64,000 bases of DNA from a virus, in the IMG/VR virus record IMGVR_UViG_3300032931_001151, positions 62,001 to 126,000 of that record; one strand, given 5' to 3'. Of this stretch, positions 6,976 to 48,054 are shown in pieces. A program made the position numbers and the translations under genes. How positions within the stretch are numbered: position 1 is the first letter of the stretch; each line of letters opens with the position of its first letter. Under the pieces are notes generated by a model. That model was not told the DNA's origin and did not search any database. It saw only the letters and a program-made list of their open reading frames with translations.

Positions 6976-7011
6976 AATCCCCTTGGGTATAATTACTCAA
7001 GGGGATTTTTT
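6976..7011 (+). terminator. rho-independent terminator with TATAAT in the loop and SD in the 3' arm
   Basis: Perfect 10-bp stem AATCCCCTTG (6976-6985) / CAAGGGGATT (6998-7007) with a T run to 7011: a canonical terminator for the rII operon. The 12-base loop contains TATAAT (6988-6993), and the descending arm contains AAGGGG, the only ribosome site for the ATG at 7012. Full-length RNA both terminates and hides the ribosome site; RNA started about seven bases after the loop box would have neither problem, though its leader would be very short. Confidence 0.8.
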
Positions 7012-7677
7012 ATGGAAAATATTATTGAAATTGAGTTAAATCCGGAATTTCATATAAGCAAATTTCTAACCACTAACGTTAGAAAGTTGGCATTGTACAT
7101 TCCTACTATTGATCAATTAATGCCAACCGAAAGTAACTATTTTGGTCTAAAGGAGATGACATATGGTAATATCATATTAGATCAAGAAAGCGGATTGGTG
7201 GCTTTAACGGTTAGACAATTCTTTAAAGCATTACTTTCAAATATGCCATATGCGTATGAAATCGCTTGCACTCCCCATTCCAATATAGTAGCGGATTCCC
7301 AATTAGGATTTGAAATATTAAATTTCGGAAAAACCCATCTTATTTCTAAGCCCATTATAGATAAGTACTTAAAAAGCTTCACAGAAGATAAAATAACGGG
7401 GAATTATACAAGAGCATATAGAATCGGAACCGTTCTAAAGAGATTGTATAGAGGATTAAGAACTACCGAAATGACGAACGAAGAAACCGAATTATATAAC
7501 CACTTATTAAGTGATACCGTTAAATTAGAAGATATTGAATTTTCTTTAACGCATATGGATGTTGAATTCCAATCTATTGAGCCTACTATAAACTATAATG
7601 ATATATTTCCACCAATTGATATAAATTACATAAATCAATTTTTAATTCAAACCCATAAGGATTACTTAAAACTATGA
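7012..7677 (+). CDS. hypothetical protein, possible degenerate nucleotidyltransferase
   Basis: A 221-residue protein. The stretch SGLVALTVRQFFKALLSNMPYAYEIACTP and the later YTRAYRIGTVLKRLYRGLRTTEM resemble the body of phage/bacterial DNA-polymerase-beta-type nucleotidyltransferases (RlaP/YcgL-like, which have D.T..sl..F...L..gNP...E and K...H..RLL...e.L...G). The N-terminal catalytic GS...SDiD signature is not seen, so if related it has lost activity. The match is by eye and weak. Its translation is set by the hairpin at 6976-7011. The next gene overlaps by four bases (ATGA). Confidence 0.45.
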   Translation: MENIIEIELNPEFHISKFLTTNVRKLALYIPTIDQLMPTESNYFGLKEMTYGNIILDQESGLVALTVRQFFKALLSNMPYAYEIACTPHSNIVADSQLGFEILNFGKTHLISKPIIDKYLKSFTEDKITGNYTRAYRIGTVLKRLYRGLRTTEMTNEETELYNHLLSDTVKLEDIEFSLTHMDVEFQSIEPTINYNDIFPPIDINYINQFLIQTHKDYLKL

Positions 7678-12452: not shown

Positions 12453-13067
12453 ATGTCATTCCAAGTAAAAACCCCGGAACAAGAAGTTAAAATTCCAGAA
12501 TATTGGAATGTTATATTTTTAAATGGTGAAATAAACGAAGGAACCGCTATTGATATATCTCAACGGTTGCTTTCAATTGATTTAATAAATCAAAATCTTG
12601 ATAAGCCTGAGCCAGTTAACTTAGTAATTAATAGTGGTGGCGGATCTTTAAATGCGGCTTGGCAAATTTGTGATATGATGGATTTTATAGATACTCCGGT
12701 CTATACAGTTGGTCTTGGAGTAATAGCTAGTGCGGCTCTTGTTATTTTTATGAACGGCAATAAAGGACATAGAATACTATCAAGTCGTTGCTCTTTAATG
12801 TCCCATCAATATTCATGGGGAGCGGTCGGAAATCACTCCGATTTATTAGCAGTTAGAAAAGAGCAAGATGTTACCATGGCAAAAATTCTAAAGCACTATA
12901 AAGAAACGACTAAACTATCGGAAAAAGTTATTACTGCCAATTTATTAAAAGAACACGATGTATGGTTAACACCCGAAGAAGCTATTAAATTTCACATAGC
13001 GGATAAAATCGTAACCACTAAAAAGAAAAAGAAAATAAATGGAAGAACGTCTAAAATCTCCAAGTGA
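12453..13067 (+). CDS. ClpP-like serine protease
   Basis: 204 residues, the length of a ClpP subunit. The catalytic triad can be placed: Ser93 in GVIASAALVIFMNG (family GxAaSm), His118 in SLMSHQYSWGAVGNHSD (family MiHQP.gg..G...D), and Asp169 in KEHDVWLTPEEA (family ERDRFLSAPEA). The opening IFLNGEINEGTA and NLVINSGGGSLNAAW are also ClpP-like. Cellular ClpP forms a tetradecamer fed by ClpX/ClpA; a phage copy may act in head maturation or redirect host proteolysis. No ClpX-like gene is nearby. The next gene overlaps its end by 29 bases. Confidence 0.85.
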   Translation: MSFQVKTPEQEVKIPEYWNVIFLNGEINEGTAIDISQRLLSIDLINQNLDKPEPVNLVINSGGGSLNAAWQICDMMDFIDTPVYTVGLGVIASAALVIFMNGNKGHRILSSRCSLMSHQYSWGAVGNHSDLLAVRKEQDVTMAKILKHYKETTKLSEKVITANLLKEHDVWLTPEEAIKFHIADKIVTTKKKKKINGRTSKISK

Positions 13068-13821
13068 GCTAATAGTACCAAACTTATCCAAATTAATACT
13101 TGATAATGATGAATTATCAAGTATTAATAAGTTTGAATCGGTTAATGTATCATTAGTTGCTCAAAATGGACTTGATATAGTTGAATCTATTAGAAATACA
13201 AATTTAATAACCGAAGAAGATGCGAAAAACATTAAGAATGCTCACGATTTCTTATTATCATCTTATACGGACGTTATTATCTATAACACAAGAATAGCAA
13301 AAGTAACTTCTATATTGTCTGATGGAAAATTCCCAACTAACGATTCTAAATTCTGGCAATGTAAAATGCAAGCGGAAGTTCATTTTAACGAATTTATACG
13401 AGCACTATATAAGTTAGATAGAGTAAAAATTGATATTGAAGAAATACAATATCAAATATTATGTCTTGATAATATGCTTAACAATGAAAATTCGGAAACT
13501 TCACAAATGGATAAAATAAAATTATCATTTGATAAGAGGCGGTTGGTTAATAAATTAAATCAATATATTCATGAAATGAAGTTACTTGAAAAAGATATTA
13601 AACAAAGACTCCGTGAAATAAACGATTGGTCAGAAATAGCGGAAGGATTTAAGAGTGCATGTGTGCATAGTACTTCCAATTATGAAGAACATACTATTAA
13701 TAGTCACATATTAGCATTACAAAATTATGTAAATAACGCTAAAACTCCCGAAGAAAAGAAGAACTTTGTTGACCAACTTAATACATTCTTAAGATTACTA
13801 GGAAAGCCGCCGATTAAATAA
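13039..13821 (+). CDS. hypothetical helical protein, 260 aa
   Basis: 260 residues, almost entirely helical with several coiled-coil-like stretches (KIDIEEIQYQILCLDNMLNN, KLLEKDIKQRLREINDWSEI). It starts inside the end of the ClpP-like gene and is the last + strand gene of the left block; its tail overlaps the tail of the convergent virion gene by eight bases. A 16-bp inverted repeat lies 53 bases into the gene. Function unknown. Confidence 0.6.
   Translation: MEERLKSPSELIVPNLSKLILDNDELSSINKFESVNVSLVAQNGLDIVESIRNTNLITEEDAKNIKNAHDFLLSSYTDVIIYNTRIAKVTSILSDGKFPTNDSKFWQCKMQAEVHFNEFIRALYKLDRVKIDIEEIQYQILCLDNMLNNENSETSQMDKIKLSFDKRRLVNKLNQYIHEMKLLEKDIKQRLREINDWSEIAEGFKSACVHSTSNYEEHTINSHILALQNYVNNAKTPEEKKNFVDQLNTFLRLLGKPPIK
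13092..13128 (+). repeat. 16-bp perfect inverted repeat just after the ClpP-like gene
   Basis: ATTAATACTTGATAAT (13092-13107) and ATTATCAAGTATTAAT (13113-13128) pair perfectly around a 5-base loop (GATGA). The repeat is 25 bases past the stop of the ClpP-like gene and inside the overlapping next gene. No T run follows, so it is not a classical terminator; RNA processing, mRNA 3'-end protection or a protein-binding palindrome are possible. Confidence 0.65.
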
Positions 13822-43460: not shown

Positions 43461-43487
43461 TCCTTTTTGTTTATTTATATAAAAGGA
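43461..43487 (-). promoter_or_regulatory. late-type promoter box inside a hairpin before gp25
   Basis: Plus-strand TCCTTTT (43461-43467) and AAAAGGA (43481-43487) form a 7-bp inverted repeat with a 13-base loop. Read on the - strand, the loop contains TATAAATA (43479 to 43472), the T4 late-promoter octamer, and the 3' arm contains AAAAGGA, the gp25 ribosome site. The stem is short, so this is the weakest of the clear-arm cases. Confidence 0.45.
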
Positions 43488-43490
43488 ATA

Positions 43491-45125
43491 TTATATCTTT
43501 GAAGATATATCTGGATTACCCGCCTTGTCAACACCATCGTCTTTTTCTAATGACGTTACATCTAAAGCTACTTTATCTTGTTTAGGACTATTAACGAAAC
43601 TACTTGGAGTAATTGGCGTAGTAGGATTGGCAGGCGAGGCTGGAGACGCTACACCAATATAAGGAGTAGACGGCCCTGCACCAGGGCCGGGAAAACACCC
43701 GACATGAAGAGCGTTTGATATAGGAACAGACATTTGAATGTTTCCACCAAAACCACCCGGATCAACTTTAAATGAAGATCCCGCATTTATAACAAATTGA
43801 GAATCTATATTCATAGTTGATGCTGCACCAGAGAATTTCAATGCTTGAGCATTCATATCAATTGTTTGTGCTGTCACTTTTAATGCGGAACAAATTATAC
43901 CTATCTCGTTAGATGATTGAAGTGCTATATTACCAGAAGCAATGATTTTAGTGTCCCCGGTTGAATTTAAACTCGTATTTCCCATAACGGTTGCCGACAT
44001 ATTATTATTAACGGTGGCATCAACATTGCCCCCAACTTTCATTATAACATCTTTATCTACTTGGACTTGCATATTGCCACCAATATGAGCATTCAAGTTT
44101 CCAGAAGATACTTCAACGTTAGCATGACCCTTCTCAACAACTATATCAATATCCCCCTCTCGAACGACAATCCCAACATTCTTTTTAACATTCAATTGAC
44201 AATGTTCTTCGCCTTGAATGAATATATTACCTTGAGCAAATAAATCATAATCGCCTATAATGTGTAATTCCTTATGTCCCGCAACTAATTCTTCATCATT
44301 ACTATTAATGGTACTTCCTGCCGATTTAGTAGTACCTACAATAGTTTTTCTATGACCGTATTCGCTTACAAAGGTGGTCGTACCCTTGTTTATTAAATAA
44401 TATCTTTCTTTCCCATCTTGATTGACTACTATGAATGTAGTACCATTTTTTGAAGTAAATGAGGTTACATCCTGTTGGTTAATATCATCAATTGGATATA
44501 CGTTGACTCTAGGCTTACTACAATAGGTTTGCACTAAAGCATTTTGAGCGGGAATAGATCCATTGTGAGCATTTTTATCCGGCGTAAATCCGGTTCTTAA
44601 GTTACTTACATCATTAATAGTATCGTTTACGTCTTGTGTTAATTTTCTTTGTTGTTCTTTCCAATCTTGTTGTTTTGGGCTTGTAGCCCAATATTGGGGT
44701 CTATTATGATTGCTAGAGTCAAAAAAGACCCATACTATAGTTCCCTTACGAGGAACCGTAAAGAATCCACCAGTTCCACAATCATCTTCTACCGGATCCG
44801 TGAATTTCCCACTATTAGGAGTTAACTGAGTTGCGGACTTTCCTGGCATAGTTTTTTCGTCGCCACTTGGTCTATATCTATCCGAAGATGTATCATTATT
44901 TTCTATATTATGACCACCTGACCAATATACTCCAAGACAAGGCTCGGCCCAAGGAAGGTGTAAGGTGGGAGTTTCAGCCGCAAATGGGCTATGTAGGCCA
45001 AATATTCTTACTTGTACTCTACCAGCTTTTTTCGGATCTACATTATTTTCTACAATAGCTCTATAATTCCCATTAAAGTGAGAATCGTCTTTCGTAAAAT
45101 CATCGTATTCTTGTCCAAATCCCAT
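43491..45125 (-). CDS. baseplate central spike, gp5-like, without lysozyme domain
   Basis: 544 residues. An N-terminal OB-fold (YRAIVENNVDPKKAGRVQVR, IFGLHSP, then GGFFTVPRKGTIVWVFFDSS and the segment ending RPQYW, residues about 19-150) is followed by a linker and a triple-stranded beta-helix (residues about 255-440) with short V..V..G repeats: GDIDIVVEKGHANVEVSSGN, LNAHIGGNMQVQVDKDVIMK, VGGNVDATVNNNMSATVMGN. This is the T4 gp5/VgrG/P2 V spike plan. T4 gp5 has a lysozyme between the OB-fold and helix; no such domain is seen here. The Pro/Ser-rich C-terminus (SPASPANPTTPITPSS) is unlike T4. Confidence 0.85.
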   Translation of the reverse strand: MGFGQEYDDFTKDDSHFNGNYRAIVENNVDPKKAGRVQVRIFGLHSPFAAETPTLHLPWAEPCLGVYWSGGHNIENNDTSSDRYRPSGDEKTMPGKSATQLTPNSGKFTDPVEDDCGTGGFFTVPRKGTIVWVFFDSSNHNRPQYWATSPKQQDWKEQQRKLTQDVNDTINDVSNLRTGFTPDKNAHNGSIPAQNALVQTYCSKPRVNVYPIDDINQQDVTSFTSKNGTTFIVVNQDGKERYYLINKGTTTFVSEYGHRKTIVGTTKSAGSTINSNDEELVAGHKELHIIGDYDLFAQGNIFIQGEEHCQLNVKKNVGIVVREGDIDIVVEKGHANVEVSSGNLNAHIGGNMQVQVDKDVIMKVGGNVDATVNNNMSATVMGNTSLNSTGDTKIIASGNIALQSSNEIGIICSALKVTAQTIDMNAQALKFSGAASTMNIDSQFVINAGSSFKVDPGGFGGNIQMSVPISNALHVGCFPGPGAGPSTPYIGVASPASPANPTTPITPSSFVNSPKQDKVALDVTSLEKDDGVDKAGNPDISSKI

Positions 45126-45137
45126 TAATATGCCTTT

Positions 45138-45398
45138 TTAATAAAAGAGTACTAACCAAACTATCTTTTCAACATGAGTTTCGGGATCGGCTTTAACGGT
45201 TTCAAGAACATTCAACCCATTATAAAACCAATGCTCACGAGCATATGACATCAACTCATTATATTTATCGGGGGTTGGTTCAAGTTCTACTATATCACCT
45301 ATGACATCTTCATATTTTGCCCATTCGGATTTAGGCAAAGTTCCTTTAAGAACCATTCGAGATGTATCTTTAGATGTTTCTATGGCTATTGAAGACAT
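45138..45398 (-). CDS. hypothetical protein, 86 aa, next to the spike
   Basis: 86 residues: MSSIAIETSKDTSRMVLKGT, then PKSEWAKYEDVIGDIVELEP, and a helical end (HWFYNGLNVLETVKADPETH, VEKIVWLVLFY). It sits 12 bases before the spike gene in the same late operon, so a small baseplate or assembly role is likely; no family recognised. Confidence 0.6.
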   Translation of the reverse strand: MSSIAIETSKDTSRMVLKGTLPKSEWAKYEDVIGDIVELEPTPDKYNELMSYAREHWFYNGLNVLETVKADPETHVEKIVWLVLFY

Positions 45399-45399
45399 A

Positions 45400-46035
45400 T
45401 TATTTGACTATACTAATATCATCATTATCTAAAGAAACATTATTCCAATCTTGGATTATTTTTCTAGTAACAACTCTACCGTTAATCATGGTATCAAAAT
45501 ATGCGGCGACTTGTAGTATCCCATTCACAACCCTAGTTTCAGTTTGAAAATATCCTTCGGATTGTGTACTCTTTATTGGAAAAGTATCACTTGGTTTATC
45601 TACTATTCCCAAATTAGCACTAATTCTTTTAGAAGTTTCTTCGTCTACTTTATATTCTCCTGGAATATTCTCCGGAATCTTAACTGGGCCTGATATATAT
45701 CCGTGTATATCAGTCATACATTCATATTCTTTTTCCAAATCAGCAATAGAATTTGAACCCGTTGCTTTTTTTGTAGATGCTAATAAAGTGTTATATTTCT
45801 CAAGAAGTACCTTGATTTCACCGTCTTTATCATTAAGTTTACTTTCAAGCACCTTATTAGCATCTTTTAAGATTGCAACTTCTTCATTAGTATGGGCTTC
45901 TAGATCGGATCCATGAGTAAGATTACTTACGAATTTTATTATTCCACCCTGAGAAGTAATATTAGAATAAATTTCTTTATCTTTAAGGGCCGATGTTAAT
46001 ATTGAATTATATAATTCTTGGGGTATGTCTAACAT
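45400..46035 (-). CDS. hypothetical late protein with coiled coil, 211 aa
   Basis: 211 residues. Residues about 60-95 (EVAILKDANKVLESKLNDKD followed by GEIKVLLEKYNTLLAS) form a coiled coil; the C-terminal half is beta-type (YFQTETRVVNGILQVAAYFD, then TMINGRVVTRKIIQDW). The ribosome site AAGGAGA lies in the 3' arm of the 17-bp hairpin at 46042-46082. First gene of the late baseplate block; a virion or assembly role is inferred from position. Confidence 0.6.
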   Translation of the reverse strand: MLDIPQELYNSILTSALKDKEIYSNITSQGGIIKFVSNLTHGSDLEAHTNEEVAILKDANKVLESKLNDKDGEIKVLLEKYNTLLASTKKATGSNSIADLEKEYECMTDIHGYISGPVKIPENIPGEYKVDEETSKRISANLGIVDKPSDTFPIKSTQSEGYFQTETRVVNGILQVAAYFDTMINGRVVTRKIIQDWNNVSLDNDDISIVK

Positions 46036-46041
46036 ATAAGA

Positions 46042-46082
46042 AATCTCCTTCGTGATATGACTATTATATCACGAAGGAGATT
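46042..46082 (-). promoter_or_regulatory. 17-bp hairpin with TATAAT at the loop and SD in the 3' arm
   Basis: AATCTCCTTCGTGATAT (46042-46058) and ATATCACGAAGGAGATT (46066-46082) pair perfectly over 17 bp with a 7-base loop. On the - strand the loop edge reads TATAAT (46068 to 46063), without a -35 hexamer, and the 3' arm holds AAGGAGA, the ribosome site of the gene starting at 46035. RNA from the HNH gene upstream would lock the ribosome site away; RNA started near 46056 would expose it. Confidence 0.78.
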
Positions 46083-46646: not shown

Positions 46647-46674
46647 ATTATAAATGAAAAATAAGCTTTGTCAA
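46647..46674 (-). promoter_or_regulatory. consensus promoter for the HNH gene
   Basis: On the - strand: TTGACA (46674 to 46669), 16-base spacer, TATAAT (46652 to 46647). Both hexamers are perfect. The HNH ATG at 46622 follows after AAAGGAT. Confidence 0.75.
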
Positions 46675-46729: not shown

Positions 46730-46894
46730 ATGAGAAAAGAACATCAAATCCATATCCGAGTTAATGATGAGGAAAAACAAAAAATGATTTTAAAGTCAAC
46801 TAAGCTTGGATTTAAACAATTAAGCGAATATCTACGATTTATTGGATTAAATTCTGAAACTAAAGTGGAAATTGACATAAAGGAAAAAAATTAA
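46730..46894 (+). CDS. ribbon-helix-helix (MobC-like) small DNA-binding protein
   Basis: 54 residues: HQIHIRVNDEEKQKMILKST followed by KLGFKQLSEYLRFIGLN has the beta-strand then two-helix pattern of ribbon-helix-helix proteins, close to the MobC/plasmid-relaxosome type. These bind DNA as dimers, often as repressors of their own operon. The stop overlaps the next ATG (TAATG), so it is coupled to the endonuclease gene. TAGGAGA is the ribosome site. It may control expression of the endonuclease or of the divergent HNH gene. Confidence 0.65.
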   Translation: MRKEHQIHIRVNDEEKQKMILKSTKLGFKQLSEYLRFIGLNSETKVEIDIKEKN

Positions 46895-48054
46895 TGATTG
46901 CTAAACTAACCCAAGAAGAATTTGTATATAAAGCAAATAAAATACATAATAACAAATATACATATGATAAAACTGAATATGTTAATGCTAAATCAAAAAT
47001 AACAATAACGTGTCCCGTTCATGGAAATTTTACCCAACTTGCTAATAATCACATTAATGGTTATGGATGTAAGAAGTGCGCTAAAGAAGAACTATACTCT
47101 AATAATACTATGACAATTGACGAATTTCTATCCAAGTCAAACAAAATACATAATAATTTTTATATATACACTAAAACTAAATATATAAAAAGTTATAAAA
47201 AAATTATTATAACTTGCCCAAAACACGGAGATTTTGAACAATTACCCTACGTTCACATAAGGGGATTTGGTTGTATAAAATGTAGCAATGAAAAGAAATC
47301 TCTTCAATATACACATTCAAACGACGACTTCATAAAAAAAGCAAATGTGATACACAATAAGCTCTACGACTATTCAAAATGCATCTATAAAGGAACTCGT
47401 GCAAAGATATGCATTATTTGCCCAATACATGGGGAATTTCACCAAATAGCACATAACCATTTAAATGGGATGGGGTGTAAAAAATGTGCTATGATATCTC
47501 AAAAGAGTATTATTACAAAATCTAACAAAGAATTTATTGATAGATGTAGAAATGTTCACGGAAATTTATATAATTATGATAAAACCAACTATAAAGGTAG
47601 TAAATATAAAGTTTGTATTACCTGTAATAGCCATGGACCGTTCTATCAATCCGCAGGAGGACACCTAAAAGGACAAGGATGTCCAAAATGCAACAACTCT
47701 AAAGGTGAAAACATAATAAATAATTTCTTAATTCGCAATAATATAGAATTTATACCAGAAAAAACATTCCAAGGCTGTAAATTTAAAAAATTGTTACCAT
47801 TTGATTTCTACATTCCATCTCATAACTTATGTATTGAATTTGATGGAAAGCAACATTTTGAATCTGTTGACTATTTTGGAGGGGAGAAGCATCTTAAATA
47901 TATTAAAAACAACGATTTAATTAAAACCAATTATTGTATTAGTAATGGAATAAAGTTGCTTCGTATAAAATATACGGATTTTGATAATATTGAGTTTATT
48001 TTAAATACTCAATTGAATATCACTACCGCAACACCCGAAACTATTTTCAAGTAA
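46894..48054 (+). CDS. homing-type endonuclease with four DUF723 repeats and a VSR-like nuclease domain
   Basis: 386 residues. Four tandem repeats of about 70 residues (starting near 1, 66, 135 and 211) each read F..KaN.IHNN.Y.Y.KT.Y....KI.I.CP.HG.F.Q....H..G.GC.KC, the DUF723 DNA-reading module with one CP.HG and one C..C zinc site. The C-terminal domain (GENIINNFLIRNNIEFIPEK near 273, then LPFDFYIPSHNLCIEFDGKQ and HF) is a PD-(D/E)xK nuclease of the VSR/DUF559 type. This layout is found in free-standing homing endonucleases of large phages. It is inserted between the late tail block and the glycosyltransferase cluster. Confidence 0.8.
   Translation: MIAKLTQEEFVYKANKIHNNKYTYDKTEYVNAKSKITITCPVHGNFTQLANNHINGYGCKKCAKEELYSNNTMTIDEFLSKSNKIHNNFYIYTKTKYIKSYKKIIITCPKHGDFEQLPYVHIRGFGCIKCSNEKKSLQYTHSNDDFIKKANVIHNKLYDYSKCIYKGTRAKICIICPIHGEFHQIAHNHLNGMGCKKCAMISQKSIITKSNKEFIDRCRNVHGNLYNYDKTNYKGSKYKVCITCNSHGPFYQSAGGHLKGQGCPKCNNSKGENIINNFLIRNNIEFIPEKTFQGCKFKKLLPFDFYIPSHNLCIEFDGKQHFESVDYFGGEKHLKYIKNNDLIKTNYCISNGIKLLRIKYTDFDNIEFILNTQLNITTATPETIFK

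Follow-up and report, generated by a model that had tools for sequence, protein, structure and literature searches.

A perfect 17-bp hairpin that hides an SD and nests an extended -10 promoter: a probable self-insulating module in a phage genome

Background

When T4 genes e, soc and 49 are transcribed from upstream promoters, the SD is hidden in a helix of the RNA, while transcription from an internal late promoter gives an RNA that lacks the helix (PMC3014915). The same hairpin device is found at the endonuclease genes of I-TevI, I-TevII and I-TevIII, T4 segB and Aeh1 mobE and, according to one review, the T4 genes with such hairpins are all late (PMC2988022).

Here we describe a comparable hairpin in a 64,000-nt window (positions 62001-126000) of a 214.2-kb viral record. 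The T4-like genes of this record include those for sheath, TerL, portal, DNA polymerase, a gp5-like hub, gp25, rIIA and a gp55-like late sigma.

Results and discussion

Hairpin and surrounding genes

The hairpin at 46042-46082 is the longest perfect inverted repeat in the window. An inverted-repeat search showed that its arms pair over 17 of 17 nt (100% complementary) with 7 nt between them, while a longer 20-nt pair at 2051-2091 is just 85% complementary. The minus-strand sequence is AATCTCCTTCGTGATAT-AATAGTC-ATATCACGAAGGAGATT-TCTTATATG, and the coordinates of its parts are listed in Table 1. No stem of at least 14 bp arose in 30 simulated genomes matched in dinucleotide content; the real record contains 11 maximal stems of at least 14 bp, this hairpin among them. 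A perfect 17-bp stem is far past chance expectation, in agreement with a sequence-only reading of this DNA, which had picked out the repeat as the strongest in the window and as not due to chance. The isolated hairpin has a predicted fold of -24.0 kcal/mol and is still predicted within 221 nt of surrounding read-through RNA. An Rfam scan of the window gave 0 matches.

An HNH endonuclease gene and a 211-aa ORF flank the hairpin; they are co-directional with a gap of 53 nt. Another endonuclease gene, of HNH/homing type (phrog_559; window 46894-48054), adjoins the HNH gene divergently. In IMG/VR, no relatives were found of the 211-aa ORF, gp5, gp25 or a 1204-aa protein; the 211-aa ORF had no match among phage records, and the relatives of the HNH gene were partial ones only. 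The hairpin had been read from the sequence as the boundary between an early-type endonuclease gene and a late block. The first part of this reading is supported by the consensus promoter of the HNH gene; the second, a late block, is not supported in that form, the nested promoter not being of the late type of this phage. Late expression of the 211-aa ORF is expected from function (a gp5-like gene is in the operon), not from its promoter.

Table 1. Coordinates of the hairpin, its neighbouring genes and related elements (window positions unless marked as record, contig (L) or G).
Feature	Position	Strand	Remarks
Hairpin 5' arm	46066-46082	-	anti-SD TCTCCTT at 46080-46074
Hairpin loop	46059-46065	-	7 nt, AATAGTC
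Hairpin 3' arm	46042-46058	-	AAGGAGA at 46050-46044, SD of the 211-aa ORF
Extended -10 promoter TGATATAAT	46063-46071	-	upper 5' arm into loop; TG 46071-46070, TATAAT 46068-46063
HNH endonuclease gene, 177 aa	46089-46622	-	6 nt from gene end to hairpin
HNH gene promoter	46647-46674	-	consensus sigma-70-type TTGACA-16-TATAAT, 12/12 match; proposed source of read-through RNA
211-aa ORF	45400-46035	-	proposed controlled gene, ATG at 46035; no recognised family
86-aa ORF	45138-45398	-	next in operon after the 211-aa ORF
gp5-like baseplate hub/tail lysozyme	43491-45125	-	phrog_430, 8.5e-34
Sister hairpin with nested GGTATAAT	6976-7007	+	SD AAGGGGA of ORF 7012-7677; T6 tail, terminator shape d=32.8
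Sister element AATCCCTTTTTGATATAATATATGTAAGAAGGGATT	1922-1958 (ends approximate)	+	before ORF 1963-2217
12-bp terminator-like hairpin, HNH gene SD (G205855)	L011:822-851 = record 205822-205851		TGATATAAT directly before 5' arm
TATAAATA-nested hairpins	G8323, G211471, G213544, G137354, G150596, G56169	-, +, -, -, -, +	G56169 beside TATAAT
TATAAT-nested hairpins	46042-46082, 7012, 1963, G166033, G33695	-, +, +, -, -	
Examples from outside the record	L067, L070, L110, L161		L067: CTCCTTTATGTTATAATTTTAAAATAACATAAAGGAG..ATG

The nested promoter

As also noted from the sequence alone, TATAAT is at the loop edge and AAGGAGA is in the 3' arm; both can be read directly on the minus strand. The -35 element of the nested promoter, GTGAAA, is a poor match with an 18-nt spacer. 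The predicted start is 46056 +/- 1, which is 7 nt past the hexamer, where the 3' arm has just begun. The earlier description holds in that a hairpin with a promoter inside it sequesters the SD and lies between the HNH gene and the next block.

The record has more than one class of promoter. TATAAATA is a late-type motif, with 28 of its 40 genome copies located upstream of genes, and a gp55-like late sigma is encoded in the record. Copies of TGNTATAAT occur 15-70 nt before starts in 22 of 42 cases (1.5 expected), most of them without a -35, and a good TTGAC-type -35 accompanies 28 of the 79 TATAAT sites before genes. Members of the extended -10 class precede the late sigma, dUTPase, UvsY-like, glycosyltransferase and epimerase genes, as well as one baseplate hub gene. 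Functions of the late sigma, dUTPase, UvsY, glycosyltransferase and epimerase kind are largely pre-late in T4. No MotA-like box was found, as the TATAAT sites without a -35 share no conserved -30 motif. A T4-type middle promoter is one with a MotA box centred at -30 beside a sigma-70 -10 element (PMC2988021), and the class to which the nested promoter belongs, with no -30 motif, falls outside this definition. The nested promoter is probably middle-like in its timing rather than gp55-dependent late.

Because the nested element TGATATAAT belongs to the extended -10 class and is not a TATAAATA late promoter, the status of the controlled gene as a late gene is unproven, and the earlier claim that the hairpin blocks early translation of late genes is weakened: its timing may be wrong, the inner promoter not being late-type. 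A safer reading is that only transcripts from the gene's own promoter can be translated.

Predicted effect on the ribosome site

Based on folding, the SD of the 211-aa ORF costs 16.8 kcal/mol to open in read-through RNA and 1.8 kcal/mol in RNA from its own promoter. Shuffling the 26 nt upstream never gave a difference of this size in 40 trials, and the short own-promoter RNA has no strong predicted structure at the SD. In the mechanism that we propose, RNA reading through from the HNH unit would contain both arms and fold, leaving the 211-aa ORF untranslated, while RNA from TGATATAAT would begin where the 3' arm begins, within a base or two, carry no anti-SD and be translated. The product of the 211-aa ORF would then be made solely from its own promoter. 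We infer the start site, the occurrence of read-through, the translational effect and the timing of the nested promoter, and translational insulation is our best reading of the energy, geometry and recurrence of the element. It is likely that this promoter-nested, SD-hiding hairpin is a self-insulating module of promoter and ribosome site.

Similar hairpins in the genome

The 46042-46082 hairpin had been described as one of several alike, the two other cases probably being the elements at window 6976 and about 1922, and it proved to belong to a genome-wide class: all 12 of the SDs that are costliest to open (at least 8 kcal/mol) have an exact TATAAT or TATAAATA, compared with 67 of 199 others, where a -10 motif was counted if its transcript would start upstream of the SD. 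The association is weakened by a control for spacer length (p=0.02-0.03), with 11/11 versus 45/69 (p=0.03) when the comparison is limited to spacers of at least 40 nt. Similarly, when the segment before the promoter was shuffled, 22 of 85 promoter-SD pairs surpassed their shuffles at p<=0.05, where about 4 would be expected, and gene-specific complementary runs of at least 8 nt were seen 8 times, versus 1.6 with permuted pairings (maximum 5 in 300 permutations). The hairpin of the HNH gene G205855 is related to this class and differently arranged, its 5' arm coming immediately after the -10. The sister element at window 6976-7007 is a promoter inside a strong terminator shape overlapping the SD.

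The gene at G211471 encodes an HNH-like/HTH protein and another hairpin gene, in the TerL locus, encodes a homing endonuclease. The hairpin genes show no genome-wide excess of co-directional upstream genes (11:4) over other promoter genes (51:13). Several of them are located between divergent genes, where symmetric promoters give inverted repeats trivially. The divergent pairs at record 158320-158741 and 213116-213839 have overlapping promoters in 64-nt spacers, and the symmetry pairs with both SDs. At the record end (L011:3510-9082), thirteen tRNA genes are interspersed with hairpin-controlled genes. Other perfect inverted repeats include one of 17 bp (13-nt loop) at L003:7346-7392, just downstream of a C1-peptidase gene (itself equipped with a late-promoter hairpin), and an AT-rich one of 16 bp at window 13092-13128, inside ORF 13039-13821.

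TerL is split at L007:8860-12157 (record 134459-137756, minus strand). Its N-part consists of the N-extein and a 33-aa intein-like start (GRQSGK/CVQSQQ...), and is followed by a homing-endonuclease ORF (zf-C2H2, phrog_3339) with a late-promoter hairpin and then by the intein C-part (...NGLVSHN/TTTSC) fused to the remaining TerL. The order is the same in L014, and TerL is uninterrupted in L012 and L015. The hairpin of the homing endonuclease is not kept in the diverged contig L014; this, the poor -35 of the nested promoter and the lack of a co-directional excess all count against the self-insulation reading. We take this arrangement to resemble that of a "fractured gene" split intein, a type reportedly described by Dassa et al. 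in 2009.

Alternative explanations

The hairpin might instead serve the HNH gene as an intrinsic terminator overlapping the next SD, with the nested promoter possibly restarting transcription; insulation would then act on transcription, or at both levels. The stem (-22 kcal/mol) is followed by the tail TTTCTTATAT, its d-score of 5.7 puts it in the genome's top ten terminator-like sites, and real T tracts mark two sister elements, those at window 6976 (d 32.8) and G205824 (d 18.8-28.2). However, the T tract at 46042-46082 is broken and the score is marginal compared with the clear terminators of this phage, which score 20-55, and most class members have the SD/anti-SD geometry without a T tract (d -34 to -83). 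Termination is an unlikely explanation for the element, although the hairpin may have a marginal terminator function as well, and termination may add to insulation in a few class members.

A DNA-level palindromic operator, in which a dimeric repressor or endonuclease would bind the repeat over the promoter and the RNA hairpin would be incidental, seems quite improbable. The symmetric element does span the -10 and the start region, CGTGATATAAT is common to one other locus (G209319), and there is a precedent in I-TevI, which represses its own late promoter via an operator (PMC2988022). Against this, arms of 17 bp are long for an operator, and they differ among class members, each matching its own SD. 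Among the 215 outside loci listed, G-U versus A-C mismatches in interrupted stems numbered 14:5 (p=0.06), which weakly favours RNA.

There is very little to recommend the original version, in which a late promoter in the hairpin silences a late baseplate gene early, for although the geometry is identical to that of T4 e and I-TevI, a gp5-like hub gene is downstream and about six other hairpins in the genome contain TATAAATA, the nested TGATATAAT is in the class that precedes the late-sigma, dUTPase, UvsY and glycosyltransferase genes, and the minus strand from 46100 to 43480 contains no exact TATAAATA, only GATAAATA at 45269, the nearest exact copy being at 43479, upstream of gp25.

Occurrence in other phages and bacteria

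Public viral and bacterial contigs were scanned for the pattern CTCCTT..TGNTATAAT..AAGGAG. Because the match numbers listed by two viral pattern scans do not allow a comparison, extension of the stem past the six fixed pairs was measured instead, and partners swapped between loci served as the control. Among the matches listed, at least 4 extra pairs were found at 27 of 98 viral loci, against 3.6 expected, and at 15 of 117 bacterial loci, against 3.7 expected, and at least 6 extra pairs at 10 viral (0.7 expected) and 7 bacterial loci (0.4 expected); these figures describe the matches listed, some of which are possibly related loci, and are not frequency estimates. At several outside loci, a -35 is located just before the anti-SD, which places the anti-SD inside the promoter spacer. 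G-U pairs counted over all positions were not above the swap control at the outside loci listed, with a hint in interrupted stems only. Co-directionality at the outside viral loci listed was 17:8 for strong stems versus 19:26 for weak ones, which is suggestive only.

The relatives identified via TerL comprised nothing longer than 4-6 kb apart from two diverged contigs (27 kb and 306 kb). In the diverged 306-kb contig, 3 of 16 late sites and 2 of 30 sigma-70-type sites have hairpins at p<=0.05, and the 211-aa ORF has no match there.

Because the outside sites pair more locus-specifically than chance, the variant looks general, and the sequences suggest that the extended -10 SD-hairpin architecture occurs generally in phages and bacteria. 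We propose tentatively that sigma-70-type promoters which encode the anti-SD of their own gene in the spacer or -10 region form a self-insulating module that has evolved independently and is widespread in phages and bacteria, rather than being confined to T4 late genes; this phage would use it roughly a dozen times, with promoters of two classes. The classic T4 device would then extend to non-late promoters, and promoter-nested SD hairpins are a suggested general route to genes deaf to read-through transcription. Such modules would be overlooked by expression models in which the promoter and the ribosome site are each scored on their own.

Comparison with known systems

The folds of T4 e, 49 and I-TevII, used as controls, have the same geometry as the 46042-46082 hairpin, and a control scan of T4 picked out I-TevII blind. 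As in T4 e, soc and I-TevI, the SD is in a stable predicted stem of upstream-initiated RNA, motif and geometry point to a promoter in the 5' part whose predicted transcript omits the 5' arm, and the 211-aa ORF is downstream of an earlier-class unit, the HNH gene. In contrast to T4 e, soc and 49, the hairpin contains an extended -10 promoter of sigma-70 type and not the gp55-type TATAAATA, which is present in other hairpins of this genome, and the stem is longer and perfect. Some hairpin genes of the phage are HNH or homing endonucleases, as with I-TevI, I-TevII, I-TevIII, segB and mobE; unlike in those systems, the hairpin here is 3' of the HNH gene and would guard the next gene rather than the endonuclease.

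In IS10 and IS50, a fold-back shields the transposase mRNA from external promoters, and the transcript from its own promoter exposes the ribosome site. The likeness is that read-through RNA would hide the ribosome site while the gene's own transcript would not, and that the promoters are sigma-70; the IS10 and IS50 elements differ in being transposon ends, with the promoter outside a short hairpin loop and no phage developmental switch. The insulating logic is already known from T4 e, soc, 49 and I-TevI, and by analogy with these, the variant at 46042-46082 would lie in its host-type promoter.
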